A stretch of 46,058 nt of DNA. Source: a virus. The notes under the pieces are model-generated. The model had not been told where the DNA came from, searched no databases, and saw nothing but the letters and a program-made list of their open reading frames with translations. This document shows positions 1 through 45,816 of this stretch, one piece after another; positions within the stretch are counted from its first letter, which is position 1, and every line of letters starts with the position of its first letter. The stretch covers positions 1 through 46,058 of the IMG/VR virus record IMGVR_UViG_3300028920_000108, one strand, 5' to 3'. The translations under genes were made by a program, and so were the position numbers.

Positions 1-468
1 ACCCGCTTTTTTATACGCGGTAAAAGCGCCGGTCTCCGGGCAGGCTAAAAAGTAACCTACAGCCCCGCGCAAGTCGGACGCGCGCAAGTCGGACGCGCGC
101 AAGTCGGCCCCGGACAGGTTGGCCCACGACAGGTTGGCCCCGGACAGGTCGGCCACGGACAGGTTGGCCCCGGACAGGTTGGCAACGCGCAAGTCGGCCC
201 CGGACAGGGTGGCCCGCAACAGGTTGGCCCCGGACAGGTTGGCCACGGACAGGTTGGCCTTGAACAGGTTGGCCCTGAACAGGTTAGCACCGGACAGGTT
301 GGTCTTGAACAGGTTAGCAGCGGACAGGTTGGCCCCGGACAGGTTGGCCCCGGACAGGTTGGCCCTGAACAGGTTAGCACCGGACAGGTTGGCCCTTACG
401 CCCCCGTCTTCACCCCTGAGCCATTTCACGTGTGATTCCAGCACTTCTTTTAGTTCTTGTAGTTCCAT
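1..468 (-). CDS. Pentapeptide-repeat protein, 3' end outside window
   Basis: The reading frame starts at ATG 468-466 and stays open for 156 codons to the window edge, so the C terminus is missing. Residues 1-20 form a helical leader ([17 protein letters not shown]). About 20 uninterrupted A(N/D)LSx pentapeptides follow, and then a [19 protein letters not shown] stretch like the C-terminal module (DUF5758-type) of phage pentapeptide proteins. Pentapeptide repeats form a right-handed quadrilateral beta helix; some members mimic DNA to protect gyrase, but the target here is unknown. The start lies 2 bases after the stop of the DUF2800 gene, so it is the last gene seen in that minus-strand operon. 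In the second module copy only the leader survives. Domain call is firm, role is not. Confidence 0.88.
73..394. repeat. Degenerate 15-bp tandem repeat encoding pentapeptides
   Basis: The plus strand repeats units such as GGACAGGTTGGCCCC every 15 bases with substitutions (gccacggac, ccctgaac, gcgcaagtc variants). Each unit encodes one pentapeptide of the minus-strand protein. Such arrays can gain or lose units by slippage, so repeat number may vary among relatives. Confidence 0.85.
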
Positions 469-470
469 AG

Positions 471-1583
471 CTAAAATAACTCCTTTGTGTCTTTTTCGCC
501 AACTGCTATTTTATAAAGCGTTGGTTTATCGTACAGGTCGGAAATGTTCTCTTTTCCCGCCAGTCTCTCAACTTGCGCCGGGCTTTTTATCTTTCGCGGC
601 TGATAGAGCTTATCACCCAAAAAGCTAAGGCGCTTTTCAACTTCTTTTTCACTTATCCATTTTCTATGCCCCGAAGTCTCCTTTTTATACACAGAATCAA
701 AGCGCGTCCCGCTATCAATAAGGACACCAATTCTTTGCTCTACCGCGTCGAGAAAAGTTTTTATATATGAAGACATAACAAAAATATCTTCCAAACGCTC
801 GGCGCTTAACTCCTCAGCGCCAACGCCAGCACAGCTTTTAAAGCCCCCATACATCGCATGCATTGCAGGACAGACAACAACAGCCGGGCAAAACTTGCAT
901 TTTTCAGAAACATTGTAGTTGTCGCTGTTTGCACGTATGTATTTAATCCTATTCGGCAGATCGTCGGCTGAGGTTTCAAGCGGCATTGACACCGCCCGGC
1001 GCAGTTCATCCCAATACCCCGGCTGCACAACGTGACCGGTAAAGGTAGTAACACCCGCACCCCCGAAGCCCGAATAACTTAGGACATCGGCAGAAAAGGA
1101 AAGCTGTTCATACGCGCTTTCTGAATAGTCGAAATTACCGGTCTTAAGGTCGATAATGTCTATTATTATTTCGTTCTTACCCTTTACCTTAGTTATGAGC
1201 ATAGTATCGGCCTTAAATACGTTATCAACACCCAAACAGTCAAGGCGCTGTTTTCCCTCAACTACTAACTCACACTTGCCATACTTCCCGCGCTCCCGGA
1301 TGAGTTTTTTAAGATACTTACCGTATTCATTTACCATAAATTTGGCATCGTCATAATACGGCGCGTCCTTTTGTACGTGATCCTTTAGTGCCTGTATGAC
1401 AGTGCATTTTTTCCCGCTTGCTATGGCATTCGCGAGAGTTTCCGCAGCCGCGTGTATTGCTTTACCACGATCGGCAGCCGTCTTAAATGGGTTGTAGCGT
1501 AATTCTCTTGAGAGCCCTTCTTCCAGAGCTACAGAACCGGGACACGCCATAGCGCGCCCGACCATAGATGCAGTTAATTTCAT
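471..1583 (-). CDS. DUF2800-family PD-(D/E)XK nuclease with Fe-S-type cysteines (copy 1)
   Basis: A 370-aa protein of the DUF2800 family, a phage relative of the RecB/AddB/Cas4 nuclease domain. Visible features are ACPGS with C14, a putative metal-binding Asp in KADTMLI (D126), DLKTG at 145-149 (the (D/E)XK core), Q160, and the trio C229-C232-C238 in [12 protein letters not shown]. One early plus three late cysteines is the usual 4Fe-4S clamp of AddB/Cas4-type nucleases. The likely role is DNA end processing in phage recombination or replication, together with the DUF2815 ssDNA-binding protein encoded divergently nearby. It is followed after 2 bases by the pentapeptide gene. The second copy at 37309 differs at 17 of 370 residues and keeps all these residues. 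Confidence 0.85.
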
Positions 1584-1616
1584 TTATTTTATTCTCCTTT
1601 TGATTTTTTATTATTT

Positions 1617-2165
1617 TTAGCGGTTTTTTACTTGTACCGGCATTAGAATATATCGCAGATTTTCCACTAATTCCATAAGCACAGGCGAGAGCGGCCCCTG
1701 CACATATACGTTAAAAGGATCATCCGCGTATGTGAGTACATCTAAATACATAGGATTGATACACACACCGCGCTGCGCGAGTTCATACAACAGCTTACCA
1801 GTGTTTTGACCGTTTATGAGCTTATTTTTACCCGCGTTGCCTGATCCTGTAAATATATTCTCGGGGTCTACCTTTTCAGGGTCTGGCATAATTTTACTAA
1901 AGTCGGGAAAGCTAAATTCATCCGCGCTATGAAAGTTTAAGTCTATTTCAGATGATTTGCTTGATACGACTTTGTAAAACCCGTCCTTTTCACCCGCGAA
2001 ATTTTCACATGTAAACACTACCAAACGGCGCGAGTCTGAAGCGGAAAAGATAGCCCCTTCTTTGTAGATAAATTCAAATACCGGTTTTACTCCCTTTTCG
2101 TCCCGGCATAGATCAAGGATTTTGAAGCCTTTAAACTCGTCTTGCTGCTTGCTGATTTCAATCAT
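1617..2165 (-). CDS. Miniature DnaN/sliding-clamp-like protein (copy 1)
   Basis: A 182-aa protein carrying the landmark motifs of the C-terminal two thirds of bacterial DnaN in the right order. SASDSRRLVV (41-50) matches the ATDGHRLAV strand. FPDFSKIMP (86-94) matches the FPDYRRVLP linker. MYLDVLTYA (139-147) matches the SYVLDVLNAL helix. GPLSPVLM (157-164) plus the terminal YILMPVQV (172-179) match the SPVLI...YVIMPMRL end that builds the partner-binding pocket. Domain I and much of domain II are absent: a normal clamp is about 370 aa. It probably tethers the phage family A polymerase or nucleases to DNA, or occupies the host clamp pocket; which one is inference. It is first in the minus-strand operon with the DUF2800 gene. 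The motif match is by eye. Confidence 0.7.
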   Translation of the reverse strand: MIEISKQQDEFKGFKILDLCRDEKGVKPVFEFIYKEGAIFSASDSRRLVVFTCENFAGEKDGFYKVVSSKSSEIDLNFHSADEFSFPDFSKIMPDPEKVDPENIFTGSGNAGKNKLINGQNTGKLLYELAQRGVCINPMYLDVLTYADDPFNVYVQGPLSPVLMELVENLRYILMPVQVKNR

Positions 2166-2199
2166 TTGTTTTTTCTCCTTAACTTTTTGTTATAAGAAG

Positions 2200-2228
2200 A
2201 CAATATACACGGTTGCCCTATTAGTCAA
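2200..2228 (-). promoter_or_regulatory. Sigma70-like promoter for the clamp-like/DUF2800 operon
   Basis: On the minus strand TTGACT (2228-2223) and TATTGT (2205-2200) are separated by 17 bases and point at the gene starting at 2165. The same elements and spacing recur in copy 2 at 39066-39038. Confidence 0.6.
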
Positions 2229-2253
2229 CCGCTTTTATAAAAATTATAGAAAA

Positions 2254-2280
2254 AAAGTATAATTTTTTATGCTATACTTT
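2254..2280. promoter_or_regulatory. Operator-like inverted repeat between divergent promoters
   Basis: AAAGTATA (2254-2261) and TATACTTT (2273-2280) form an 8-bp inverted repeat with an 11-base centre, between the two divergent promoters. In copy 2 both arms are kept, and a base change also creates the direct palindrome AAAGTATACTTT. A regulator-binding site is a reasonable inference. Confidence 0.4.
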
Positions 2281-2290
2281 ATTTTTATGC

Positions 2291-2319
2291 TTGACCATAA
2301 CGCCCGCTTTGCCTATAGT
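2291..2319 (+). promoter_or_regulatory. Sigma70-like promoter for the plus-strand early operon
   Basis: TTGACC (2291-2296) and TATAGT (2314-2319) are spaced by exactly 17 bases, about 50 bases upstream of the DUF2815 start. The element is identical in copy 2 (39129-39157). Confidence 0.7.
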
Positions 2320-2370
2320 ACTACTATGATGTTACAATCATAAATCAAATTTAATCACAGAGGTGATACA

Positions 2371-2997
2371 ATGAGCAAAAAAACGAGCCGTTTGAGACTG
2401 GACAACGTGAGGGTAGTATATCCGTCATTGGATAAGCCAGCCAGCTTTGCGGGGCAAACAGAAGAGCAAGCAAAGTACGGAATTAAGTTCCTCGTCCCAA
2501 AAGGCGACAAAGCAGTCATTGACAACATAAAGGCTTTTTTAAAAGCAAATGTTGACAACGTGGATAAGTGGTCAAAGACCGCGAAAGCGCAAGTGTACAA
2601 AACCGCTATTGACCAAGACCCGTATAATGATAACTGTGTTATCAAAGACGGCGACAAAATCAATGCGCGCAGACTGGATGAGGAAAAAGAAGCAGTTGCA
2701 GCATACGAGGGTCATATTGTTATCGGCGCTAACCGCAATCAAAAAAAAGGCCCCCCTGTTGTTGTTGATCGTAACAACGAGCCTATAGACAAGGGTCTTA
2801 TCGCGGGCGAAATCGTTTCCGGCTACTGGGTAAACGCGTATGTTGATGCGTATTGTTACAACAAGCCAAAAAACGGGATTACTCTGTCACTGTATGCAGT
2901 ACAAAAAGTAAAAGAAGATGAGGTTTTTGGGCAGCCATCCCCTTTTGACGTAGTTGAGGGAGACGACGAAGAAGAAGACGAGCCTACTTTTGGCTAG
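2371..2997 (+). CDS. DUF2815 ssDNA-binding protein (copy 1)
   Basis: A 208-aa protein of the DUF2815 family, phage proteins considered single-stranded-DNA-binding or recombination-associated and typically encoded next to DUF2800 and family A DNA polymerase genes. The N terminus (LRLDNVRVVYPSLDKP), the PASFAGQTEEQAKYGIKFLV stretch and the very acidic tail (EGDDEEEDEPTFG) are characteristic. An acidic tail is common in SSB-like proteins that recruit partners. It has a GAGGTGAT ribosome site and its own promoter at 2291, and is followed by a hairpin. Copy 2 differs at 9 of 208 residues. Confidence 0.82.
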   Translation: MSKKTSRLRLDNVRVVYPSLDKPASFAGQTEEQAKYGIKFLVPKGDKAVIDNIKAFLKANVDNVDKWSKTAKAQVYKTAIDQDPYNDNCVIKDGDKINARRLDEEKEAVAAYEGHIVIGANRNQKKGPPVVVDRNNEPIDKGLIAGEIVSGYWVNAYVDAYCYNKPKNGITLSLYAVQKVKEDEVFGQPSPFDVVEGDDEEEDEPTFG

Positions 2998-3006
2998 GCA
3001 CACCAC

Positions 3007-3033
3007 GCCGCCCTTATGGGCGGCTAACTTTTT
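3007..3033 (+). terminator. Hairpin after the DUF2815 gene
   Basis: GCCGCCC (3007-3013), loop TTAT, GGGCGGC (3018-3024), then TAACTTTTT. It probably partially terminates transcription after the abundant DUF2815 message. The same hairpin with a 5-base loop occurs in copy 2 at 39845. Confidence 0.65.
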
Positions 3034-3047
3034 AAGGCGGGGCATGA

Positions 3048-3242
3048 GTGAAACTAAAAAAGATTTTCATACTTTTCGGCGCAGTGTTGCTTGCCTCTTT
3101 TGTCGTACACATATACTGCGCCGTTTCGTTATTTCTTTTGGGGCAAGACTGGCGGACGCTACTGCTGCCATTTTTAGGCGCGCTTTTTACCGGCGTTTTA
3201 GTGATAACGTTTTGTGATTTTATAACGCGTATGAAAGCATAA
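3048..3242 (+). CDS. Small two-helix membrane protein (copy 1)
   Basis: A 64-aa protein with GTG start at 3048. It has two hydrophobic segments, about residues 5-30 (IFILFGAVLLASFVVHIYCA) and 36-58 (LLLPFLGALFTGVLVITFCD), joined by a short loop, with a basic N terminus. Function unrecognised; a small inner-membrane protein is all that can be said. The protein is 100% identical to the one at 40152 and the DNA differs at only three positions, although its neighbours differ: here it precedes an 82-aa gene, in copy 2 it follows a 93-aa gene. An alternative frame starting at ATG 3044 gives a non-hydrophobic sequence and is rejected. Confidence 0.7.
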   Translation: MKLKKIFILFGAVLLASFVVHIYCAVSLFLLGQDWRTLLLPFLGALFTGVLVITFCDFITRMKA

Positions 3243-3283
3243 TCACAAAATTTAGCAAAAATAATAATAGGAGAATAAAAAAA

Positions 3284-3532
3284 ATGTTTAAAATAGACAA
3301 GGATAAGCCACAACCATTAAAGACAGACGAAAAAGCACCGGAGTTATTAGAAATAATAATAAAAGACAAAGAAACAGGCGAGGAGTTTATGAGAGAGGTC
3401 GTTCTTCAAAAACACTTTTCAACTGGTTCTGTTGGTTACTATGTCGGCGGCAAAATGACAAATCCTCAAAGTGGGGAACGTTACCAAGTTTCATGTAATA
3501 TCGCTTTAATAGGTTCAAAACCTAAAAAATAG
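3284..3532 (+). CDS. Hypothetical 82-aa protein
   Basis: Unrecognised. The protein is charged and soluble, with an acidic-basic N-terminal half (EIIIKDKETGEEFMREVV) and a beta-like C-terminal half (GSVGYYVGGKMTNPQSGE). It has an AGGAG site 8 bases before ATG 3284. It has no counterpart in copy 2, where this slot holds only a short remnant (40358-40453), so it belongs to the variable accessory part of the early operon. Confidence 0.6.
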   Translation: MFKIDKDKPQPLKTDEKAPELLEIIIKDKETGEEFMREVVLQKHFSTGSVGYYVGGKMTNPQSGERYQVSCNIALIGSKPKK

Positions 3533-3589
3533 CACATCACATAATTTAGTGAAAGTGAATTATTAATGTAAAAAGAGAGGACAAAACAA

Positions 3590-3769
3590 ATGATTGAATT
3601 TAACGATGGCGATTGTACAGGTTGCGGGCAGTGTGTTGAGTATTGCACAGGGGCCGCGTTTATACCAGAACCGGGATACGGGGTGCGCTTTATCGAGGCT
3701 AAATGCCTGCTCTGTGATAGATGTGAAGTATCTGATATATGTCCGGGTGACGCGGTAAAACAAAAGTAA
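3590..3769 (+). CDS. 2[4Fe-4S] ferredoxin-like protein (copy 1)
   Basis: A 59-aa protein with two complete cysteine motifs: C9-x2-C12-x2-C15-x3-C19 (CTGCGQCVEYC) and C39-x2-C42-x2-C45-x5-C51-P (CLLCDRCEVSDICP). Length, spacing and the internal pseudo-repeat match small bacterial-type ferredoxins that carry one or two electrons at low potential. It has a good AGAGAGG site and sits between a hypothetical gene and the 83-aa/SNF2 pair. All eight cysteines are kept in copy 2, where only three residues change (A22V, E36D, L41Q) while several codons change silently, which indicates selection on the protein. The redox partner is not identified; possibilities are a phage or host reductase, or supply of Fe-S to nucleases such as DUF2800. 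Confidence 0.8.
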   Translation: MIEFNDGDCTGCGQCVEYCTGAAFIPEPGYGVRFIEAKCLLCDRCEVSDICPGDAVKQK

Positions 3770-3788
3770 AAAAGGAGGAGTAAAACGA

Positions 3789-4040
3789 ATGAAGACACAG
3801 AAAAGAAAAAAGGTGCTGCGCCACTTGGAACTTACAGCAGATGAATCAAAGACCTTAAGTCGCCAAATATGCGAGATTAAAAAGGCGCTTCGTCCCCGCG
3901 TTCGGGCGACAAACGCAGAAGTCCTCTCAAGGCTTGTTATGTACGCCCTTCATAACGAAGAGGTCCTTCATAATGTATATACTGACATCATAGAGGACGC
4001 AAAAGAAGAGATACAACAGCGGGCAAGGGGGCAGGAGTGA
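3789..4040 (+). CDS. Hypothetical basic 83-aa protein upstream of SNF2 helicase (copy 1)
   Basis: Predicted all-helical, with a basic N terminus (MKTQKRKKVLRHLEL) and an acidic C-terminal helix (DIIEDAKEEIQQRARG). The middle (RVRATNAEVLSRLVMYAL) resembles the helical part of ribbon-helix-helix-type DNA binders, but this is not secure. It has a strong AGGAGG site, and its stop overlaps the GTG start of the SNF2 gene, indicating translational coupling and a probable shared function. The homologue at 40671 differs at four residues. Confidence 0.65.
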   Translation: MKTQKRKKVLRHLELTADESKTLSRQICEIKKALRPRVRATNAEVLSRLVMYALHNEEVLHNVYTDIIEDAKEEIQQRARGQE

Positions 4041-5401
4041 AACCGACCTTGCGAGCCGATCAACAAAAAGGAGTAGAATTCTTACAGGGCGTATTTGAGA
4101 AACATAAAGGCGCGCTGTGTGCTGATATTATGGGGCTTGGTAAGACTGCGCAAGCTATACACCTTATAAAGATGCGAGCAAGTTTTGATATGCCTGTATG
4201 TATCGCCGCCCCCGCTTATTTAGTGTATAACTGGCTTGACGAGCTTGAACTCTGGGGGTGCAAAAGTGACGTGTGCGTTATTGACAGTAAAAAGCAAGTG
4301 CTTCATGACGCCGAAATTTATATAGGCTCATACAACATGCTTGCAAGTGACGCGATACACAAGCAGCTATTAAAAAAGACGTTTTCTCTTTTGTGTTGTG
4401 ATGAGGCGCACACTTTCCGAACGTGGAACTCTATACGGTCAAGGCGGTTGCTTGGAACCTTCCAGAATAAGAAAAGTAATCTTTTGTACCGGTCAAAAAA
4501 TGCGTTGTTACTCACAGGAACCCCTATTGTCAACAGTGTTGAGGACATCTACAATATAGTAGTCCGCATAGCTCCGGAAGTTTTACGGAAGTATGATAAA
4601 ATGTCGTTTCTTGCTGGATTTGCGGGGTTCTTGCAATACTCGCCGTATGGGGTAAAGCCTGTAGGCGTGAAAAATGAAAAGCAGTTACACAAAATCTTAT
4701 CGAGTGTCATGCTTCGCCGATCAGAAATTCCCGGCATAAAAGAGGTCACCCCGGCGCGCATACCGTTGCAGCTTAAAGGGGCAAAGCTAAAAAAGTTCAT
4801 GAAAGAGGAAAATGACTTTTTACAGCGGTACAGCATAGAAGTTGAGGACATCTTAAAGGGGCAGGATAGTAACACCCCGGCAGCGTGTGAATTTGCGGCA
4901 CTTAGGACACAAACGGCGCTGCATAAAATTCCGCTCATACTTCCGGCGATAGTTGATGCGTATGAGTGCGGAATTAGGCCGGTAGTCTATTGCTGGCATA
5001 AAGCAGTTCAAGAGGCGCTGTTTACCGAGCTCGACAGAAAATGTAAAGGTGCAGATATTGCGATAGTAAACGGCACACAAAGCCCTAAGTGCCGGGCGGG
5101 TATTGTTAAAAAATACCAAGCGGGTGAAATTGATATACTTTTGCCAACTATCGGCGCACTTAAAGAAGGCGTGAATCTGACAGAAGGGCGGTTGGTTATT
5201 TTTGTTGAGTTACCGTATACGCCCGCGGAAGTTGATCAAGTTATCGCCCGGTTTAATAGGACAGGTCAAAAGGGGTTAGTAGTTGCAAAAATGTTTTATT
5301 TTAAGGACGGAATTGATGCGTATATCATGCGATTACTCGACAGGAAGCGTGACGTTATACAAAAAAGTTTAAGAGATACGCAGTTTAAAAAGGAGGCGTG
5401 A
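4037..5401 (+). CDS. SNF2-family DEAH helicase (copy 1)
   Basis: 454 aa, GTG start overlapping the previous stop. Motifs in order: Q-like TLRADQQKG at the N terminus, Walker A IMGLGKT (31-37), CCDEAH (Walker B, 120-125), LLLTGTP (motif III, 157-163) and ARFNRTGQKG (motif VI, 404-413). This is the minimal SNF2 ATPase core with both RecA lobes and no accessory chromatin domains, typical of phage SNF2 proteins. It translocates on double-stranded DNA using ATP; in phages it is thought to help remodel replication or recombination intermediates. Copy 2 at 40919 is the same length, with all motifs conserved. Confidence 0.9.
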   Translation: MKPTLRADQQKGVEFLQGVFEKHKGALCADIMGLGKTAQAIHLIKMRASFDMPVCIAAPAYLVYNWLDELELWGCKSDVCVIDSKKQVLHDAEIYIGSYNMLASDAIHKQLLKKTFSLLCCDEAHTFRTWNSIRSRRLLGTFQNKKSNLLYRSKNALLLTGTPIVNSVEDIYNIVVRIAPEVLRKYDKMSFLAGFAGFLQYSPYGVKPVGVKNEKQLHKILSSVMLRRSEIPGIKEVTPARIPLQLKGAKLKKFMKEENDFLQRYSIEVEDILKGQDSNTPAACEFAALRTQTALHKIPLILPAIVDAYECGIRPVVYCWHKAVQEALFTELDRKCKGADIAIVNGTQSPKCRAGIVKKYQAGEIDILLPTIGALKEGVNLTEGRLVIFVELPYTPAEVDQVIARFNRTGQKGLVVAKMFYFKDGIDAYIMRLLDRKRDVIQKSLRDTQFKKEA

Positions 5402-5404
5402 AAG

Positions 5405-5584
5405 ATGGAAAAAATAATACAGATACAGACAGATTTAACTCCAGAAGAAACAAACGAACAGGGGGTTGTTATAAAATACAGTGTTATGATAACCGCGCTT
5501 ACTAATTACGGTAGAGTGCTGCAAAAGACATATGCAGGAAACTGGAACGAAGTAGAAACAAAATCTTTTAAAAAGAAGGCGTAA
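5405..5584 (+). CDS. Conserved 59-aa hypothetical protein (copy 1)
   Basis: A small ORF starting 3 bases after the SNF2 stop, preceded by AAAGGAGG. It has a short acidic N terminus then a beta-type sequence (GVVIKYSVMITALTNYGRV). Not recognised. The copy at 42287 has the same length and differs only at three internal residues and the last two or three, so it is a real gene rather than a chance frame. Confidence 0.7.
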   Translation: MEKIIQIQTDLTPEETNEQGVVIKYSVMITALTNYGRVLQKTYAGNWNEVETKSFKKKA

Positions 5585-5615
5585 CCAATGGAAAGATTTA
5601 TGGTAGGGGGAGGAA

Positions 5616-5876
5616 ATGCTTGAAAGAACTAACCAACCGGAAGAAAAAAACATCGTCTCACACCCGTCACATTATACCGATGTTGTGCCGGGTATAGAGT
5701 GCATTGAGGTTACACGCCACTTTAATTTTTGCCGTGGGAACGCCATAAAATATATTTGGCGCGCGGGGCGTAAAGACCCGTCAAAAGAAATTGAAGACCT
5801 TAGAAAAGCGCGGGAGTATATCGATATTGAAATCGGTCGACTTGAGCAAGAACGATATGAAAGGGAGGAAGAATAA
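5616..5876 (+). CDS. DUF3310 protein (nucleotide kinase-like phage protein)
   Basis: 86 aa. The motif HPSHYTD near the N terminus, followed by IECIEVTRHFNFCRGNAIKY and IWRAGRKDPSKEIEDLRKA, is diagnostic of DUF3310, a small widespread phage family often annotated as nucleotide kinase-like; its biochemical activity is not established. It has a GGGGGAGGA ribosome site. The gene is absent from copy 2, where the 59-aa ORF is followed directly by the MazG-like gene. Confidence 0.85.
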   Translation: MLERTNQPEEKNIVSHPSHYTDVVPGIECIEVTRHFNFCRGNAIKYIWRAGRKDPSKEIEDLRKAREYIDIEIGRLEQERYEREEE

Positions 5877-5878
5877 AA

Positions 5879-6142
5879 ATGGAAATACAAGAAATCGCAA
5901 TAAGAGCAAAGAAAATAATAGAACACTACGGGCCTATACACCAACGCAACAAATTATTAGAAGAGCTTGACGAACTTGAAAACGCAATAGAAAAAGAGGA
6001 CAGCCAAAACATAACAGAAGAGTCGGCGGATTGCTTTTTAGTACTGCTCCAACTTTATTTGATTGATGATAACATGAGACGTGTGACAAGATATAAGGCT
6101 GACAGGACAATTGCGCAAATGACGGAGGAAGGCGAAAAATGA
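5879..6142 (+). CDS. MazG-like nucleotide pyrophosphohydrolase (copy 1)
   Basis: 87 aa, all-helical. EELDELENAIEKE (about 23-35) and ITEESADCFLVLLQL (about 42-56) form the EExxE...ExxxD metal-binding pattern of MazG/dUTPase-like enzymes, and the tail KADRTIAQM is also typical. It probably hydrolyses NTP or dNTP to the monophosphate. Starts 2 bases after the DUF3310 stop. Compared with copy 2, the first half is strongly diverged while the second half is nearly identical, suggesting recombination inside the gene. Confidence 0.72.
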   Translation: MEIQEIAIRAKKIIEHYGPIHQRNKLLEELDELENAIEKEDSQNITEESADCFLVLLQLYLIDDNMRRVTRYKADRTIAQMTEEGEK

Positions 6143-6321
6143 AAGAATGGAAACGGGAAAACTGTACTAGTTGTAACAGTGACTTGTCGGGCGTATCCGG
6201 TAGATCGCAAAGCGGCGGCGTAATTTTTAAAATCTGCCCGCGATGCGGGGGAGTGAACTTTTTCGACGCTTTAAGCGAAAAATTGGTCTCAAATGATACC
6301 AAAATGAGCGAAAAAGATTAA
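6139..6321 (+). CDS. Small zinc-ribbon protein
   Basis: 60 aa; ATG overlaps the MazG-like stop (ATGA). CTSC at 9-12 and CPRCGG at 33-38 form a zinc-ribbon knuckle pair, and the polar tail is short. Zinc ribbons of this size usually contact nucleic acid or another protein; the role is unknown. In copy 2 only the last 22 codons remain (44427-44495), after two methyltransferase genes. Confidence 0.65.
   Translation: MKEWKRENCTSCNSDLSGVSGRSQSGGVIFKICPRCGGVNFFDALSEKLVSNDTKMSEKD
6283..6302. promoter_or_regulatory. Imperfect TTGGTATCA palindrome inside the zinc-ribbon gene
   Basis: TTGGTCTCA (6283-6291), AA, TGATACCAA (6294-6302): 9-base arms with one mismatch. The same word recurs at 19917, 34691 and 44457. 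Confidence 0.35.
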
Positions 6322-6351
6322 AATTAGAATAAGAAAGGAGAATACGGAAAG

Positions 6352-6705
6352 ATGAAAATTTGGCAATACAAACAGATAGACCCGACGGACTCCGAATGGG
6401 ATGCTTACGAGATCATAGAGTGGTATGGGCCGAATGATGACGATTACAAATACGTATCGACTCATGTAGTAAATGAATCAGACGCCCGCTTAATGACAAC
6501 AGCGCCGGAAATGCTTGATTGCTTGATTAACGCTATAAAAACACAAAAAGAATGGGTGAACGTCTGTAATTCGTTAACCGAGAAAGCCGGGGTGGATAAT
6601 CAAGAACCTAAAAGCTGGAAAAAAGAAGTTAATCAAGAAATCTTGAAGACTATCGAAAAAGCAACCGGAAAAACTATTGAAGAGGTGTTGAAAGATGAAA
6701 GCTGA
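6352..6705 (+). CDS. Hypothetical 117-aa protein (copy 1)
   Basis: Unrecognised. The N-terminal half is aromatic and beta-like (MKIWQYKQIDPTDSEWDAYE, then IIEWYGPNDDDYKYVS), followed by a segment like MTTAPEMLDCLINAIKTQK, a pattern common in small phage proteins of unknown role. The C-terminal third is charged and helical (ILKTIEKATGKTIEEVLK). It has an AAAGGAG site and its end overlaps the ParB-like start by 11 bases. The copy at 44814 is the same length and about 92% identical. Confidence 0.65.
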   Translation: MKIWQYKQIDPTDSEWDAYEIIEWYGPNDDDYKYVSTHVVNESDARLMTTAPEMLDCLINAIKTQKEWVNVCNSLTEKAGVDNQEPKSWKKEVNQEILKTIEKATGKTIEEVLKDES

Positions 6706-7324
6706 ACTCATAGACATAAAACTTGTAAAAATACACCCGGAGCTAGACGAGCACTTTAAACGGGATGAAACCACTGTTGAGAACCTTAGAAAATCGATGG
6801 AAAAAAGGGGCTTCGACAAGAAACACCCGCTTATTATCTGGGAAGAGACCGGGTATTTAGTAGACGGACACACCCGCCGGGAAGCGGCAAGACGCGCGGG
6901 GATAAGCTACGCTCCCGCCATATTTGAAAGTTTCGCCTCTATAGAGGACGTGAAAGCCTATATGGACAGGACACAGTACCACCGCCGGAACTTGTCACAG
7001 CGCGACCGGGTGGAATTACTGCAAAGAGACGCGGCTTATGAGGCAGCAAAAAACAAAAAGCAGTACATAGTTGATCACATGGGGATAAGTCCAGCCAGCG
7101 CCGCGCGGATTATGGCAATCCTTCGGGATCCTGAAAAGCTTCGGGCGCTTATGGCGGGTGAAGCCATATCAAGCGGTAAACGGGCCAAAAAGAAAGAAGA
7201 TATACAAGACCCTTCAGAGGGCGAAAAAAGCCCCGTAGAGGCGCTCTCGGAGGCTCTCAGAGCCTATCAGGAGGCAACGGGGGAGAAGCTGACACCGCGG
7301 AAGATTAAGGAATTGCTTAGATAG
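6695..7324 (+). CDS. ParB/Srx-like N-terminal domain protein (copy 1)
   Basis: 209 aa. The N-terminal ParB-type fold is shown by IKLVKIHPELDEHF, the KHPLIIWE strand and DGHTRREAARRAGI (57-70), the GxxRxxA box. A helix-turn-helix-like central part follows (KQYIVDHMGISPASAARIMA), then a basic linker and a C-terminal helical domain (GEKLTPRKIKELLR). Phage stand-alone ParB proteins act as DNA-binding regulators, nucleases or CTP-dependent clamps; which applies is not clear. It is last in the early operon, followed by a strong terminator. Copy 2 at 45157 is the same length. Confidence 0.82.
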   Translation: MKAELIDIKLVKIHPELDEHFKRDETTVENLRKSMEKRGFDKKHPLIIWEETGYLVDGHTRREAARRAGISYAPAIFESFASIEDVKAYMDRTQYHRRNLSQRDRVELLQRDAAYEAAKNKKQYIVDHMGISPASAARIMAILRDPEKLRALMAGEAISSGKRAKKKEDIQDPSEGEKSPVEALSEALRAYQEATGEKLTPRKIKELLR

Positions 7325-7351
7325 CCGGGAGAAACCCCGGCTTATTTTTTT
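7323..7351 (+). terminator. Rho-independent terminator of the early operon (copy 1)
   Basis: AGCCGGG (7323-7329), loop AGAAAC, CCCGGCT (7336-7342), then TATTTTTTTA. It lies immediately after the ParB-like stop and between convergent genes. It is conserved at 45785. Confidence 0.88.
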
Positions 7352-7353
7352 AT

Positions 7354-7854
7354 TTAATACTCTCTGTAAAGGTACTCAGGCGGGCTTATTCTCTTATCAT
7401 ATCGAGAAATTTCGTTCCTAACCTCGATAAAAGGAATGTCGCGATTTAAGTAATCAGCGATAGCCGGGTTGTCGTCCATCCCGCACTTTAAGCAAGAATA
7501 CCAATCTATAATGCGGGTTAGCTGCCGAAAACCACACTCTCTGCATTCATAAAGACAAAGATCGTCCTCATTGGCAAAGCCGAGTTCTGTTAATAAAAAG
7601 CAGCCCTCCTTGTCTTGTTCGAAGAGCTTGAACTTATCAATCCGCTCATTATGAGCGCCCTTAACTTCAATGTAGTTATCTAATTCATACAAATAAAAAT
7701 CCGGGACGTACAGACGCCCATCAGATAGTTTTATGGTATGCGGCTCGTATAGCCACTTAAACCCGAGAAAATCAAGATAATAAGCCGCTTGCGCCTCAAG
7801 GCGTGAGCGAAACATAACACCTTTATATGGCGTTTCTTTGGCGATTATTTCCAT
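7354..7854 (-). CDS. PD-(D/E)XK nuclease with C-terminal zinc ribbon (copy 1)
   Basis: 166 aa. FRSRLEAQAAYYLDFLGFKW (about 16-35) supplies the early Glu. YVPDFYL (about 49-55) and YIEVKG (about 61-66) complete the PD...ExK catalytic core of the TnsA/T7 endonuclease I-like nuclease group. The second half contains CRECGF and CLKCG, a four-cysteine zinc ribbon. It probably cuts or processes phage DNA. It starts directly after the PrimPol-SF3 stop (TAAATG), so it is co-translated with the primase-helicase. The truncated homologue at the right end of the window confirms that the gene belongs to the conserved module. Confidence 0.8.
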   Translation of the reverse strand: MEIIAKETPYKGVMFRSRLEAQAAYYLDFLGFKWLYEPHTIKLSDGRLYVPDFYLYELDNYIEVKGAHNERIDKFKLFEQDKEGCFLLTELGFANEDDLCLYECRECGFRQLTRIIDWYSCLKCGMDDNPAIADYLNRDIPFIEVRNEISRYDKRISPPEYLYREY

Positions 7855-37223: not shown

Positions 37224-37306
37224 ATCAATACTCTATCGCCTCCGTCTGCACCACTTAACCATTTCACATGTAATTCCAGCACTTCTTTTAGTTCTTGTAG
37301 TTCCAT
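37220..37306 (-). CDS. 28-aa remnant leader of the pentapeptide gene (copy 2)
   Basis: ATG 37306 to TGA 37220. The first 17 codons equal the helical leader of the pentapeptide protein at 1-468 except for one residue; then the repeats are missing, and the frame ends in ATGA overlap with the polymerase gene. It is either a deletion derivative or a short leader peptide that couples translation to the polymerase. Confidence 0.6.
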   Translation of the reverse strand: MELQELKEVLELHVKWLSGADGGDRVLI

Positions 37307-37308
37307 AG

Positions 37309-38421
37309 CTAAAATAACTCCTTTGTGTCTTTTTCGCCAACTGCTATTTTATAAAGCGTTTGTTTATCGTACAGGTCTGAAATGTTCTCTTTTCCCGCTA
37401 ACCTTTCAACTTGCGCCGGGCTTTTGATCTTTCGCGGCTGATAGAGCTTGTCACCCAAAAAGCTGAGGCGCTTTTCAACTTCTTTTTCACTTATCCATTT
37501 TCTATGCCCCGAAGTCTCCTTTTTATACACCGAATCAAATCGCGTTCCGCTATCAATGAGAACACCGATTCTTTGTTCAACCGCGTCAAGAAAGGTTTTC
37601 ATGTACGAGGACATAACAAAAATATCTTCCAAACGCTCCGCGCTTAACTCCTCAGCGCCAACGCCGGCGCAGCTTTTAAAGCCCTCGTACATCGCGTGCA
37701 TTGCAGGGCATACCACAACGGCCGGACAAAACTTGCATTTTTCAGAAACATTGTGGCTGTCACTGTTTGCGCGGATATATTTAATCCTATTCGGCAGATC
37801 GTCGGCTGAGGTTTCAAGCGGCATTGACACCGTCCGGCGCAGGTCATCCCAGTAGCCGGGCTGTACAACATGACCGGTAAAAGTAGCAACAGCCGCGCCG
37901 CCGAAGCCTGAAAAGCTCAAAATATCGGCAGAAAATAAAAGCTGTTCATAGGCGCTTTCAGAGTAATCAAAATTTCCGGTCTTAAGGTCGATAATGTCTA
38001 TTATTATTTCGTTCTTACCCTTTACCTTAGTTATGAGCATAGTATCTGCTTTAAATACGTTATCAACACCCAAACAGTCAAGGCGCTGTTTGCCCTCGAC
38101 TACCAACTCACACTTACCGGACTTCCCACGCTCCCGGATAAGTTTTTTAAGATACTTACCGTATTCGTTTACCATAAATTTGGCGTCATCATAATACGGC
38201 GCGTTCTTTTGTACGTGCTCCTTTAGCGCCTGTATGACCGTGCATTTTTTCCCGCTTGCTATAGCATTCGCGAGAGTTTCTGCAGCCGCGTGTATCGCTT
38301 TACCACGATCGGCAGCCGTCTTAAATGGGTTGTAGCGCAATTCTTTTGATAGGCCCTCTTCTAAAGATACGGAGCCGGGGCACGCCATAGCGCGCCCGAC
38401 CATTGATGCAGTTAATTTCAT
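37309..38421 (-). CDS. DUF2800-family PD-(D/E)XK nuclease (copy 2)
   Basis: 370 aa with 17 substitutions relative to the gene at 471, none in the putative catalytic DLKTG or in the cysteines (C14, C229, C232, C238). Most changes are conservative. It is followed after two bases by the 28-aa remnant and then the DNA polymerase, so in this copy nuclease and polymerase form one operon, the usual arrangement for this replication module. Confidence 0.85.
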   Translation of the reverse strand: MKLTASMVGRAMACPGSVSLEEGLSKELRYNPFKTAADRGKAIHAAAETLANAIASGKKCTVIQALKEHVQKNAPYYDDAKFMVNEYGKYLKKLIRERGKSGKCELVVEGKQRLDCLGVDNVFKADTMLITKVKGKNEIIIDIIDLKTGNFDYSESAYEQLLFSADILSFSGFGGAAVATFTGHVVQPGYWDDLRRTVSMPLETSADDLPNRIKYIRANSDSHNVSEKCKFCPAVVVCPAMHAMYEGFKSCAGVGAEELSAERLEDIFVMSSYMKTFLDAVEQRIGVLIDSGTRFDSVYKKETSGHRKWISEKEVEKRLSFLGDKLYQPRKIKSPAQVERLAGKENISDLYDKQTLYKIAVGEKDTKELF

Positions 38422-38454
38422 TTATTTTATTCTCCTTTTGATTTTTTATTATTT

Positions 38455-39003
38455 TTAGCAGCTTTTTACTTGTACTGGCATTAGAATATACCGCAGATTT
38501 TCCGCTAATTCCATAAGCACCGGCGAGAGCGGGCCGGTTACGCACACTTGGAAAAGATCGTCCGCGTATGTGAGTACATCCAAATACATAGTATTAATGC
38601 AGACACCGCGCTGCGCGAGTTCATACAACAGCCTACCAGTGTTTTGACCGTTTACGAGCTTATTTCTACCCGCGTTGCCTGATCCTGTAAATATATTCTC
38701 GGGGTCTACCTTTTCAGGGTCTGGCATAATTTTACTAAAATCAGGAAATTCAAATTCATCCGCGCTGTGAAAATTTAGGGCTATTTCGGATGCCTTACTT
38801 GATACAACTTTGTAAAACCCGTCCGTTTCACCCGCGAAATTTTCGCACGTAAGCACTGCCAAACGGCGCGAGTCCGAAGCGGCAAAGGTTACCCCCTCTT
38901 TGTAAATAAATTCAAATACCGGTTTTACTCCCTTTTTGTCTCGGCATAGATCAAGGATTTTAAAGCCCTTAAACTCGTCTTGCTGTTTGCTAATTTCAAT
39001 CAT
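38455..39003 (-). CDS. Miniature DnaN/sliding-clamp-like protein (copy 2)
   Basis: 182 aa. The motif AASDSRRLAV (41-50) is even closer to the DnaN consensus than in copy 1, and FPDFSKIMP, YLDVLTYA, GPLSPVLM and YILMPVQV are all unchanged. Substitutions fall mostly outside these. Two diverged copies with intact motifs and the same unusual short length argue that the truncation is the functional form rather than decay. Operon order with the DUF2800 gene is preserved. Confidence 0.7.
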   Translation of the reverse strand: MIEISKQQDEFKGFKILDLCRDKKGVKPVFEFIYKEGVTFAASDSRRLAVLTCENFAGETDGFYKVVSSKASEIALNFHSADEFEFPDFSKIMPDPEKVDPENIFTGSGNAGRNKLVNGQNTGRLLYELAQRGVCINTMYLDVLTYADDLFQVCVTGPLSPVLMELAENLRYILMPVQVKSC

Positions 39004-39037
39004 TTTCGTACGCTCCTTAACTTTTTGTTATAAGAAG

Positions 39038-39066
39038 ACAATATACACGGTTGCCTCATTAGTCAA
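39038..39066 (-). promoter_or_regulatory. Sigma70-like promoter, minus strand (copy 2)
   Basis: TTGACT (39066-39061) and TATTGT (39043-39038), 17-base spacing; same as copy 1 despite changes in the spacer. Confidence 0.6.
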
Positions 39067-39091
39067 CCACTTTTATAAAAATTATAGAAAA

Positions 39092-39118
39092 AAAGTATAC
39101 TTTTTTATGCTATACTTT
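39092..39118. promoter_or_regulatory. Operator-like inverted repeat (copy 2)
   Basis: AAAGTATA (39092-39099) and TATACTTT (39111-39118); here the left arm is itself part of the perfect palindrome AAAGTATACTTT (39092-39103). Confidence 0.4.
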
Positions 39119-39128
39119 ATTTTTATGC

Positions 39129-39157
39129 TTGACCATAACGCCCGCTTTGCCTATAGT
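39129..39157 (+). promoter_or_regulatory. Sigma70-like promoter, plus strand (copy 2)
   Basis: TTGACC (39129-39134), 17 bases, TATAGT (39152-39157); identical to copy 1. Confidence 0.7.
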
Positions 39158-39208
39158 ACTACTATGATGTTACAATCATAAATCAAATTTAATCACAGAG
39201 GTGATGCA

Positions 39209-39835
39209 ATGAGCAAAAAAACAAGCCGTTTGAGACTTGACAACGTAAGGGTAGTATATCCGTCGCTTGACAAGCCAGCCAGTTTTGCGGGGCAAACAGA
39301 AGAGCAGGCGAAATACGGGATTAAGTTCCTCATCCCAAAAAGCGACAAGGCAGTCATTGACAGCATAAAGGCTTTTTTAAAAGCAAATGTTGACAACGTG
39401 GATAAGTGGTCAAAGACCGCGAAAGCGCAAGTGTACAAAACCGCTATCGATCAAGACCCGTATAATGATAATTGCGTTATAAAGGATGGCGACAAGATCA
39501 ACGCGCGCAGACTGGACGAAGAAAAAGAAGCGGTTGCAGCGTTTGAAGGTCATATTGTAATTGGCGCTAACCGTAATCAAAAAATGGGGCCGCCTATTGT
39601 TGTAGACCGTAACAACGATCCAATTGACAAAGGCCTTATCGCGGGTGAAATCGTTTCCGGATACTGGGTTAATGCGTATGTCGATGCGTATTGTTACAGT
39701 AAACCAAAAAACGGGATTACTCTGTCACTGTATGCCGTTCAAAAAGTAAAAGAGGACGAGGTTTTCGGGCAGTCATCACCTTTTGACGTAGTTGAGGGGG
39801 ACGACGAGGAAGAAGACGAGCCTACTTTTGGTTAG
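39209..39835 (+). CDS. DUF2815 ssDNA-binding protein (copy 2)
   Basis: 208 aa, nine substitutions against the gene at 2371 (for example LVPKGDK to LIPKSDK and KKGPPVVV to KMGPPIVV), with the acidic tail unchanged. Many third-position changes show purifying selection. Promoter, ribosome site and following hairpin are conserved. Confidence 0.82.
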   Translation: MSKKTSRLRLDNVRVVYPSLDKPASFAGQTEEQAKYGIKFLIPKSDKAVIDSIKAFLKANVDNVDKWSKTAKAQVYKTAIDQDPYNDNCVIKDGDKINARRLDEEKEAVAAFEGHIVIGANRNQKMGPPIVVDRNNDPIDKGLIAGEIVSGYWVNAYVDAYCYSKPKNGITLSLYAVQKVKEDEVFGQSSPFDVVEGDDEEEDEPTFG

Positions 39836-39844
39836 GCACAACAC

Positions 39845-39872
39845 GCCGCCCTTGTGGGGCGGCTAACTTTTT
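39845..39872 (+). terminator. Hairpin after the DUF2815 gene (copy 2)
   Basis: GCCGCCC (39845-39851), loop TTGTG, GGGCGGC (39857-39863), then TAACTTTTT. Confidence 0.65.
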
Positions 39873-39873
39873 A

Positions 39874-40155
39874 ATGGAGAAAAGAATGCATTTTTTATCT
39901 TGGGTAACGAAAAAAGAAGAAAGCGACGGGGTAGCGATAAAAGACGGCTGGCTATTTCTTGCGGATAAGGCACTCCGGGTGTCCTCCATAGATGCTATCT
40001 CAAAACATGAGAACAGACAAGAAGAATTCCTCGTCGGCATAACCGTAGGTGGTGTTTGGCATACCGTCTACAGATCCGATTCAAGAGATACACGGGATAA
40101 GAATTTTGAATTATTGCGGGATTTGCTTGTAAAGGAGAGCAATAGAAACGAATGA
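39874..40155 (+). CDS. Hypothetical 93-aa protein, copy 2 only
   Basis: Unrecognised. The pattern of short strands (GVAIKDGWLFLADKALRVSS, FLVGITVGGVWHTVYRSDSR) followed by a C-terminal helix (DKNFELLRDLLVKESN) recalls a small PH-like fold, but this is a guess. It has a TGGAGA site. It takes the slot that in copy 1 directly precedes the membrane peptide, and its last codons overlap the membrane-peptide ATG. Confidence 0.55.
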   Translation: MEKRMHFLSWVTKKEESDGVAIKDGWLFLADKALRVSSIDAISKHENRQEEFLVGITVGGVWHTVYRSDSRDTRDKNFELLRDLLVKESNRNE

Positions 40156-40346
40156 AACTAAAAAAGATTTTTATACTTTTCGGCGCGGTGTTGCTTGCCT
40201 CTTTTGTCGTACACATATACTGCGCCGTTTCGTTATTTCTTTTGGGGCAAGACTGGCGGACGCTACTGCTGCCATTTTTAGGCGCGCTTTTTACCGGCGT
40301 TTTAGTGATAACGTTTTGTGATTTTATAACGCGTATGAAAGCATAA
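40152..40346 (+). CDS. Small two-helix membrane protein (copy 2)
   Basis: 64 aa, identical in protein to that at 3048. Here it starts with ATG and overlaps the 93-aa gene (ATGA). Only three base differences in the gene, far fewer than in neighbouring genes, imply recent exchange or strong constraint. Two hydrophobic segments; function unknown. Confidence 0.72.
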   Translation: MKLKKIFILFGAVLLASFVVHIYCAVSLFLLGQDWRTLLLPFLGALFTGVLVITFCDFITRMKA

Positions 40347-40357
40347 TCACAAACTAT

Positions 40358-40453
40358 GTGAAAAGTATTGAGCTTAGAGAATATATTGACCGTGGGGCTA
40401 TGAGAAATTATTATCTTATGCAAGAACTAATCGAAAGTGAATTATTAATGTAA
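40358..40453 (+). CDS. Possible 31-aa peptide
   Basis: GTG 40358 to TAA 40451-40453. Its 3' end (GTGAATTATTAATGTAA) is also found in copy 1 at 3555-3571, after the 82-aa gene, but the upstream part is not. No ribosome site is clear; it may be the decayed end of a gene. Confidence 0.25.
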   Translation: MKSIELREYIDRGAMRNYYLMQELIESELLM

Positions 40454-40471
40454 AAAGAGAGGACAAAACAA

Positions 40472-40651
40472 ATGATTGAATTTAACGATGGCGATTGTAC
40501 AGGTTGCGGGCAGTGTGTTGAGTATTGCACAGGGGTCGCATTTATACCAGAGCCGGGGTATGGCGTGCGCTTTATCGATGCTAAATGCCTCCAGTGTGAT
40601 AGATGCGAAGTATCAGATATATGTCCGGGTGATGCGGTAAAACAAAAATAA
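40472..40651 (+). CDS. 2[4Fe-4S] ferredoxin-like protein (copy 2)
   Basis: 59 aa; cysteines at 9, 12, 15, 19 and 39, 42, 45, 51 as in copy 1. Only A22V, E36D and L41Q differ, while several codons are silently changed, so the protein is under selection. The same neighbours follow (83-aa protein, SNF2). Residues between the two cluster motifs are also preserved (FIPEPGYGVRFI). The upstream leader with AGAGAGG is identical in both copies. Confidence 0.8.
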   Translation: MIEFNDGDCTGCGQCVEYCTGVAFIPEPGYGVRFIDAKCLQCDRCEVSDICPGDAVKQK

Positions 40652-40670
40652 AAAAGGAGGAGCGAAACGA

Positions 40671-40922
40671 ATGAAACCACAAAAAAGGAAAAAAGTTCTC
40701 CGGCACTTGGAACTTACAGCAGATGAATCAAAGACCTTAAGCCGCCAAATATGCGAGATTAAAAAAGCACTTCGTCCGCGCGTTCGGGCAACAAATGCAG
40801 AAGTACTTTCCCGGCTCGTTATGTACGCGCTGCACAATGAAGCGGTCTTACATGATGTATATACTGACATCATAGAGGATGCGAAAGAAGAGATACAACA
40901 GCGGGCAAGGGGGCAAGAGTGA
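40671..40922 (+). CDS. Hypothetical basic 83-aa protein (copy 2)
   Basis: Homologue of the protein at 3789 with four changes (T3P, E60A, N63D among them). AGGAGG site, and overlap with the GTG of the SNF2 gene, as in copy 1. Function unknown; coupling to the helicase is conserved. Confidence 0.65.
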   Translation: MKPQKRKKVLRHLELTADESKTLSRQICEIKKALRPRVRATNAEVLSRLVMYALHNEAVLHDVYTDIIEDAKEEIQQRARGQE

Positions 40923-42283
40923 AACCGACCTTGCGAGCCGACCAACAAAAAGGAGTAGAATTTTTACAGGGCGTATTTGAAAAACACAAAGGCGCGTTAT
41001 GCGCTGACATAATGGGGCTGGGGAAAACCGCGCAAGCTATACGCCTGATAAAGATGCGGGCAAGTTTTGATATGCCTGTATGTATCGCCGCTCCCGCCTA
41101 CTTGGTGTATAACTGGCTTGATGAGCTTGAACTATGGGGCTGCAAAAGTGAGGTGTGCGTTATCGACAGTAAAAAGCAAGTACTTCATGATGCCGATATT
41201 TACATAGGCTCATACAACATGCTTGCAAGTGATGACATACACAAGCAGTTGTTAAAAAAGACCTTCTCTCTTCTGTGCTGTGACGAGGCGCATACGTTTA
41301 GGACGTGGAATAGCATCCGCTCGCGCCGGTTGCTTGGGACATTCCAAAACAAGAAAAGCAATCTTTTGTACAGGTCAAAAAATGCGTTGTTACTTACCGG
41401 AACCCCGATAGTAAATAGTGTTGAGGACATCTACAATATAGTGGTCCGTATCGCTCCGCAGGTGCTTAAAAAATATGACCGTATGGCATTCTTGGCAGCG
41501 TTTGCGGGATTTTTACAGTACTCGCCGTATGGGGTTAAACCTGTCGGCGTAAAAAATGAAAAGCAGTTACACAAGCTATTATCAAGTGTCATGCTTCGCC
41601 GCTCAGAAATTCCAGGCATAAAAGAGGTTATTCCGGCGCGGATTCCTTTACAGCTTAAGGGGTCAAAATTAAAGAAGTTCATGAAAGAGGAAAATGACTT
41701 TTTACAGCGGTACAGCATAGAAGTTGAGGACATCCTAAAGGGGCAAGACAGCAACACCCCGGCGGCTTGTGAATTTGCGGCACTCCGGACACAAACGGCG
41801 CTGCATAAAATCCCGCTCCTACTACCGGCAATAATTGACGCCTATGAATGTGGTTTACGACCTGTCGTCTACTGCTGGCATAAAGCAGTTCAAGAGGCGC
41901 TGTTTACCGAGCTTGACAGACGGTGCAAGGGGGCAAACATTGCTATAGTAAACGGCGCGCAGCGCCCGAAGTGCCGGGCGAGTATCGTCAAAAAATATCA
42001 AGCGGGTGAAATTGATATATTACTGCCGACTATTGGGGCGCTTAAAGAGGGCGTTAATCTCACAGAGGGGCGGTTGGTTATTTTTGTTGAGTTACCGTAT
42101 ACGCCCGCGGAAGTTGATCAAGTTATCGCCCGGTTTAATAGGACAGGTCAAAAGGGGTTAGTAGTTGCAAAAATGTTTTATTTTAAAGACGGGATAGACG
42201 CATATATTATGCGACTGCTTGACAGAAAGCGAGATGTTATACAAAAAAGTTTAAGAGATACTCGGTTTAAAGGGGAGGCGTAA
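40919..42283 (+). CDS. SNF2-family DEAH helicase (copy 2)
   Basis: 454 aa with the same motifs and positions as the protein at 4037 (IMGLGKT, DEAH, LLLTGTP, ARFNRTGQKG). Substitutions are scattered, but a stretch of more than 100 bases around motif VI is identical in DNA, whereas the rest has frequent silent differences, again a mosaic pattern. GTG start. Confidence 0.9.
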   Translation: MKPTLRADQQKGVEFLQGVFEKHKGALCADIMGLGKTAQAIRLIKMRASFDMPVCIAAPAYLVYNWLDELELWGCKSEVCVIDSKKQVLHDADIYIGSYNMLASDDIHKQLLKKTFSLLCCDEAHTFRTWNSIRSRRLLGTFQNKKSNLLYRSKNALLLTGTPIVNSVEDIYNIVVRIAPQVLKKYDRMAFLAAFAGFLQYSPYGVKPVGVKNEKQLHKLLSSVMLRRSEIPGIKEVIPARIPLQLKGSKLKKFMKEENDFLQRYSIEVEDILKGQDSNTPAACEFAALRTQTALHKIPLLLPAIIDAYECGLRPVVYCWHKAVQEALFTELDRRCKGANIAIVNGAQRPKCRASIVKKYQAGEIDILLPTIGALKEGVNLTEGRLVIFVELPYTPAEVDQVIARFNRTGQKGLVVAKMFYFKDGIDAYIMRLLDRKRDVIQKSLRDTRFKGEA

Positions 42284-42286
42284 AAG

Positions 42287-42466
42287 ATGGAAAAAATAAT
42301 ACAGATACAGACAGATTTAACTCCAGAAGAAGTAAACGGACAGGGGGTTGTTATAAAATACAGTGTTATGATAACCGCGCTTACTAATTACGGTAGAGTG
42401 CTGCAAAAGACATACGCAGGAAACTGGAACGAAGTAGAAACAAAATCTTTTAAAAAGGAGGTGTGA
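42287..42466 (+). CDS. Conserved 59-aa hypothetical protein (copy 2)
   Basis: Homologue of 5405-5584 with T16V, E18G and a changed C terminus (KKEV). It follows the SNF2 stop by 3 bases. In this copy it is followed directly by the MazG-like gene because DUF3310 is missing. Function unknown. Confidence 0.7.
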   Translation: MEKIIQIQTDLTPEEVNGQGVVIKYSVMITALTNYGRVLQKTYAGNWNEVETKSFKKEV

Positions 42467-42469
42467 AAG

Positions 42470-43530: not shown

Positions 43531-43533
43531 AAA

Positions 43534-44430: not shown

Positions 44431-44495
44431 ACTTTTTCGGCGCTTTAAGCGAAAAATTGGTCTCAAATGATACCAAAACAAGCGAAAATGATTAA
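44427..44495 (+). pseudogene. 3' remnant of the zinc-ribbon gene
   Basis: GTG 44427 to TAA 44495 encodes 22 residues matching the end of the zinc-ribbon protein at 6139-6321 (VNFFGALSEKLVSNDTK). The cysteine part is gone, replaced by the methyltransferase genes. The junction lies at GAACTTTTTCG in both copies. Confidence 0.7.
44457..44476. promoter_or_regulatory. Imperfect TTGGTATCA palindrome in the zinc-ribbon remnant
   Basis: TTGGTCTCA, AA, TGATACCAA; same as 6283-6302 in copy 1. Confidence 0.35.
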
Positions 44496-44520
44496 AATTA
44501 AACTATCAGGAGGGTAAAAA

Positions 44521-45814: not shown

Positions 45815-45816
45815 AT

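Follow-up and report, generated by a model that had tools for sequence, protein, structure and literature searches.

A putative bacterial-type 2[4Fe-4S] ferredoxin gene within the replication module of a tailed phage

What might a protein of 59 residues with two ferredoxin-like cysteine motifs do among the replication genes of a phage? In this study, we consider this question for an open reading frame (ORF) of IMG/VR virus record IMGVR_UViG_3300028920_000108, the whole of which (46,058 bp) was analysed and is referred to here as the window. The same contig carries genes for head proteins (major head protein and head protease), portal, terminase, tail sheath, tape-measure and baseplate, which indicate a tailed phage, probably with a contractile tail, and bear out the statement of an earlier note on this DNA that the ORF is phage-encoded. 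The structural and methylase genes of the contig point to many different hosts. The positions of the features discussed below are collected in Table 1.

Table 1. Features of the window, with positions counted from its first nucleotide.
Feature	Position	Strand	Remark
Replication module, version A	399..7595
DUF2800 exonuclease, C14 + C229-X2-C232-X5-C238	471..1583	-	about 2 kb from ferredoxin
ssDNA-binding protein (SSB), Enc34_ssDNA-bd family	2371..2997	+	same strand as and upstream of ferredoxin
64-aa ORF	3048..3242	+	two hydrophobic, possibly membrane-spanning stretches (by eye); both versions
82-aa ORF	3284..3532	+	directly upstream of ferredoxin; copy A only
2[4Fe-4S] ferredoxin-like ORF, copy A, 59 aa	3590..3769	+	ATG at 3590, TAA ends at 3769
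Ferredoxin ORF motif 1, C9-X2-C12-X2-C15-X3-C19 (residues 9-19)	3614..3646	+	followed by Thr, not the usual Pro; Fer4_6 match at residues 2-19
Ferredoxin ORF motif 2, C39-X2-C42-X2-C45-X5-C51-P (residues 39-52)	3704..3745	+
83-aa ORF	3789..4040	+	between ferredoxin and helicase; both copies; dN/dS 0.03
SNF2-type helicase	4037..5401	+	start overlaps 83-aa ORF
Replication module, version B	37237..46058		76-99% identical to A by BLAST block; inserted genes differ
Ferredoxin ORF, copy B, 59 aa	40472..40651	+	95% aa identity to copy A; all eight Cys kept

The identity of the ORF can be approached through its motifs and profile matches. A purine-rich, ribosome-binding-like sequence (GAGAGGA) lies 8 nt 5′ of the ATG of copy A. 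The earlier note had placed two complete four-cysteine motifs in a 59-aa protein at 3590-3769, and coordinates, length and motifs all proved exact. A search with Fer4 profiles, which the same note had proposed, put the protein above the Pfam curated cut-offs of three single-cluster 4Fe-4S models, namely Fer4_6 (29.1 bits; cut-off 25), Fer4 (27.7; 21.1) and Fer4_2 (25.0; 24.5), and below those of the dicluster models Fer4_9 (24.3; 27), Fer4_10 (24.0; 25.5) and Fer4_7 (22.0; 27). All 32 NCBIfam families matched were sub-threshold, the best 25 of them being mostly ferredoxins, ferredoxin-like subunits, and Fe-S or glycyl-radical-enzyme activases, and a PHROGs profile search gave no match at E ≤ 0.1. 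Among solved structures, the best sequence match was the polyferredoxin MvhB, with a whole-chain E of 2e-8 that is summed over repeated domains; its best single domain aligned with residues 3-56 at E 0.007. At the level of sequence, the presence of both motifs together with the Fer4 matches agrees with the earlier description of a bacterial-type two-cluster ferredoxin, an assignment that we regard as well supported. By analogy with this family, the 59-aa protein would be expected to carry two [4Fe-4S] clusters and to transfer single electrons at low potential.

Structure prediction for the protein was of low confidence (pLDDT 41.8 with two sequences and 58.3 with four). In a PDB fold search with a low-confidence model, the high-ranking entries included Fe-S ferredoxins and ferredoxin domains, although their E values were no better than 0.3 and their rmsd was 8-10 Å; fold searches with these models returned no match at E ≤ 0.001 in the PDB and none among viral models.

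The replication module occurs in the window in two versions, which, like the second copy of the ferredoxin ORF, the earlier note had overlooked. Version A alone has the 82-aa ORF and a DUF3310 gene, and version B alone has a 93-aa ORF, two DNA methylases and a 98-aa Cys-containing ORF. The methylase genes of version B (N4/N6 and C5 types) occupy window positions 42721-44430, and the N4/N6 gene is lower in GC (0.351). In the eight genes compared, silent divergence between the versions is as low as 0.03 and as high as 0.85, and the ends of the contig share no exact repeat of 16 to 200 bases. On the simplest reading, the contig would represent one turn of a genome of approximately 37 kb followed by 8.8 kb of the module of a second strain; given the variable silent divergence and the differing inserted genes, two strains in one assembly seem a better fit than a true in-genome (mosaic) duplication. 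The left end of the contig is occupied by a 15-bp tandem repeat array (window 66-395), detected as two runs of about 3 and about 19 copies and open on both strands as pentapeptide repeats; at the corresponding place, version B instead runs on towards the DNA polymerase gene.

The two ferredoxin copies differ by 10.5 synonymous and 3.5 non-synonymous changes (dS 0.36, dN 0.025, ratio 0.07). Since the differences are mostly silent and the eight cysteines are unchanged in both alleles, the gene is under selection.

On the plus strand of version A, the genes follow one another in the order SSB, 64-aa ORF, 82-aa ORF, ferredoxin, 83-aa ORF, SNF2 helicase, a 59-aa ORF, DUF3310 and MazG, so that, as had been stated, the ferredoxin does have replication genes around it, those of the ssDNA-binding protein and the SNF2 helicase. 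A 182-aa ORF and the DUF2800 gene lie on the opposite strand. The nuclease had been described as the next-door neighbour of the ferredoxin, which is a loose description in view of their distance of about 2 kb and their opposite strands. Ferredoxin, 83-aa ORF and SNF2 helicase share strand and close spacing and are found together in both versions, whereas other small genes vary; for this staying together, the two versions are a useful natural comparison. A terminator-like hairpin follows the SSB gene at 3007-3024, although such matches are hardly commoner in the region than after shuffling (7 versus a mean of 6.3). The 59-aa ORF that follows the helicase (5405-5584 and 42287-42466) is unlike its neighbours, with one silent and five replacement differences between the versions (dN/dS 1.3); the changes are few and do no more than hint at an exchange in the recent past or at relaxed selection.

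The distribution of the gene was surveyed in 28 viral records (that of the window, 14 from IMG/VR and 13 from a phage collection), several of which may be fragments. Fer4_9 matched in the record of the window alone (both copies, and one overlapping match with an internal stop), and Fer4_6 matched there and, as a weak single-motif match of 13 bits outside the module, in MW202496; in this whole-record mode no Fer4_6 or Fer4_9 match passes the Pfam cut-off, that of the window included. Apart from this weak match, no ferredoxin orthologue was found in the 27 other records, and a protein-level search of IMG/VR returned none. MW202496 is a complete circular phage from Manatee Spring with polA, DUF2800 and SNF2 homologues and a weak SSB in one module. 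The phrog_69 exonuclease profile, searched in eight of the 28 records, matched five, namely those of the window, MW202496, L138, L141 and, weakly, L151; the four other than the window have SNF2 relatives and no ferredoxin. An SNF2 alignment search yielded ten distant loci (24-38% identity), which were included in the record profiling, and IMG/VR searches based on SNF2 and DNA polymerase gave no relative. With the terminase, four contigs were recovered at 42-44%; their records had no Fer4_7 match, and their available stretches gave no replication-module match except for a weak ParB-like one in L126.

Several candidate relatives were rejected on inspection. The ferredoxin ORF had two matches in phage records, both weak, one at E 0.2 to a hydrogenase subunit of a Salmonella record and one at E 0.8. 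Of two genome_contigs loci, L127 is the ferredoxin domain of a 534-aa protein and L128 shares only a GYGVRFIEAK stretch with a protein that has no cysteines there. A plasmid search gave six weak matches (E 0.03-0.05). In the phylum of L127, which may not be that of the phage host, 17 of 198 genomes matched a three-sequence model at E ≤ 1e-5; all 19 places listed lie in open frames of at least 276 residues, which says little on origin.

Pattern searches widened this view. A loose eight-cysteine DNA pattern matched at least 120 stretches, and the 64 that were stop-free among the matches listed were all cysteine-rich by eye, with none resembling a ferredoxin. Two tighter patterns matched 15 stretches, of which a single one, L184:373-558 in IMG/VR, looked like a ferredoxin by eye; since a match requires CX5CP, a Gly following the second Cys and a spacer of limited length, these patterns would pass over other phage ferredoxins. 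The L184 product is a stand-alone 61-aa ferredoxin with 37% identity to the window ORF, the same eight cysteines and the same CX5CPGDA ending, and it passes the Fer4, Fer4_7 and Fer4_9 cut-offs. Its contig (14,080 bp, phage-like) also encodes a Dda-like helicase, an HNH endonuclease and members of phage families whose function is unknown; the ten L184 proteins scanned included no structural phage protein. That the CX5CPGDA form recurs in another phage-like contig suggests that genes this small may be reported too rarely. With a clostridial ferredoxin as the query, 102 phage-labelled records matched at E ≤ 0.1; of the 60 listed, many are fecal scaffolds that lack annotation and may be of bacterial origin. 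In MW495066, a ferredoxin is annotated close to pgi, queG and sufS. The earlier characterization of such a ferredoxin as unusual in phages is therefore fair, yet it has to be qualified by these 102 records and by the ferredoxin family phrog_16249 that already exists in PHROGs.

Taken together, we consider it likely that the ORF is a genuine gene of the phage and encodes a small, soluble ferredoxin with two [4Fe-4S] clusters, which is probably made together with the SSB and the SNF2 helicase and passes electrons to a host enzyme. In such a scheme, the 59-aa protein would fold around its two clusters, would probably be produced along with the ssDNA-binding protein and the helicase, and would carry low-potential electrons from host reductases to a ferredoxin-dependent host enzyme useful in phage DNA synthesis. 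Early expression may be supposed from the gene neighbours, with low confidence. No redox enzyme was found among the other contig proteins scanned, a set short of every small ORF, and the partner thus probably belongs to the host, in line with a report on cyanophage ferredoxins: PMC12220804, citing Campbell 2020, states that these favour the oxidoreductases of the host over those of the phage, as would suit a host partner here. Nor did any domain of an anaerobic ribonucleotide reductase or a radical-SAM protein match in the contig, so that any nucleotide-reducing partner would need to come from the host; the activase of the host anaerobic ribonucleotide reductase is one candidate, albeit a rather doubtful one. 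Against this explanation stand the weak structural models and their fold searches, the dicluster Pfam scores below cut-off, the whole-record Fer4 scores that stay under the cut-offs even for the window, Thr in place of Pro after motif 1, the CX5C spacing of motif 2, the absence of a redox partner among the contig proteins scanned and the lack of an orthologue in 27 records.

Other readings were weighed as well. That the ORF arose by chance or through faulty assembly is hardly credible, even though the contig is odd in having two diverged module copies and the 15-bp tandem array at its left end. The eight-cysteine architecture, sought by regular expression in six-frame translations with open frames of at least 30 residues, is present in two open frames of the actual sequence, as two copies would lead one to expect, and in none of 300 second-order Markov simulations of window 400-46058; this result, the dN/dS of 0.07 and the Pfam cut-offs passed all argue against chance, and even if two strains had been joined in error, both ferredoxin alleles would be real. 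A metabolic passenger recently taken from a host, with no replication role and only an accidental place beside the helicase, is rather unlikely. The missing orthologues in the other 27 viral records would suit a recent or rare gain, and PHROGs assigns a phage ferredoxin family to its auxiliary class; however, the GC and GC3 of the ORF (0.472 and 0.42) resemble those of its neighbours (SNF2, 0.445 and 0.46), the gene is retained in both variants under purifying selection, and no close cellular relative emerged from the genome_contigs, plasmid and L127-phylum searches, which were of limited scope. Alternatively, the protein might bind Fe-S or zinc in a structural or regulatory capacity, for instance as a small factor binding DNA or RNA polymerase, and keep the ferredoxin fold without carrying electrons. 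Its replication-gene setting, the absence of a redox partner among the contig proteins scanned and motif details unlike those of classical clostridial ferredoxins are compatible with such a role, which we nevertheless judge unlikely: zinc ribbons have CX2C pairs, whereas both motifs here are Fe-S-spaced (CX2CX2C...C), and Fer4 cut-offs are passed.

The remaining readings tie the ferredoxin to the phage DNA machinery. As an accessory of the DUF2800 exonuclease, it would donate a cluster, iron or electrons to this enzyme or keep it reduced, rather than feed metabolism. The C14 and CX2CX5C set of DUF2800 is invariant down to the 27%-identical relative in MW202496 (three sequences), and both genes are retained in both module versions. 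PMC3466216 describes the C...CX2CX5C layout as the Fe-S site of Cas4 and AddB nucleases, which the DUF2800 set resembles, and also reports that the related nuclease DUF3799 was solved with zinc at the corresponding site, so that even a cluster in DUF2800 is not certain. Such an accessory role is quite improbable, since the genes are on different strands and 2 kb apart, and since MW202496 has polA, DUF2800 and SNF2 homologues and no ferredoxin beyond its 13-bit single-motif match. The records of L138, L141 and L151 likewise have SNF2 and phrog_69 matches without a ferredoxin, although two of the three may be fragments and the exonuclease match of L151 is weak; given relatives of this kind, the nuclease does not need a ferredoxin in general. 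To our knowledge, moreover, ferredoxins are not usual cluster donors. Very improbable, in our estimate, is a ferredoxin dedicated to replication, co-expressed with the SSB and the SNF2 helicase and tuning the phage DNA machinery (for instance DUF2800, in its redox or cluster state), to which L184 would offer an independent counterpart in an unrelated lineage.

If, as the preferred reading has it, the protein carries two clusters and is made in infection, a bacterial-type low-potential electron carrier would be added to the known phage redox proteins. Such a carrier would also indicate that phage replication is limited by how well some host enzyme is supplied with electrons.

Ferredoxins known from cyanophages are of the plant type, with a [2Fe-2S] cluster, a single CX4CX2C...C set and a chain of about 95 aa. 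The window ORF does not follow this plan; what it shares with them is the trait of a ferredoxin encoded by a phage. Related accounts in the open-licence literature are diverse: in the accessible portions of the respective sources, PMC12220804 describes ferredoxin-like domains in polinton-like viruses, PMC8115048 treats ferredoxin-nitrite reductase, not ferredoxin, in ocean viruses, PMC5082946 concerns host ferredoxin-NADP reductase in cyanophage infection, PMC9973337 refers to a study of a Prochlorococcus phage ferredoxin, and PMC7039249 does not mention phage. The phrase 'phage-encoded ferredoxin' was absent from this literature, and phage, 4Fe-4S ferredoxin and auxiliary genes were not found treated together in it.

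The PHROGs family 16249 ('ferredoxin'), a 208-position profile of the auxiliary metabolic gene class, weakly matches the L184 protein (E 0.007) and matches neither the window ORF nor, in whole-record searches at E ≤ 0.1, the window or the L184 record. Alvin-type and YfhL-type ferredoxins have a long CX7-9CX3C insertion in motif 2, where the window ORF has CX5C, and its score with the NCBIfam YfhL model is 15.2 bits against a cut-off of 86. With the clostridial type (Clostridium pasteurianum), the protein shares a length of 55-60 aa, Fer4 matches and a pair of CX2CX2C...C motifs separated by about 20 residues, and a typed query sequence of the C. pasteurianum ferredoxin aligned with it by BLASTP over 13 residues (E 0.18). 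Clostridial 2[4Fe-4S] ferredoxins have CX3CP in both motifs, whereas the window ORF has CX3C-T in motif 1 and CX5C-P in motif 2. The L184 ferredoxin differs in an inter-motif spacer four residues longer, in Pro after motif 1 and in its gene neighbours. The only solved-structure sequence matches at E ≤ 0.01 are the polyferredoxin MvhB (9sw6) and a subunit of NADH-plastoquinone oxidoreductase (6cfw chain N; whole-chain E 7e-4), chains of 412 and 139 residues, respectively, whereas in the window ORF the domain stands alone.
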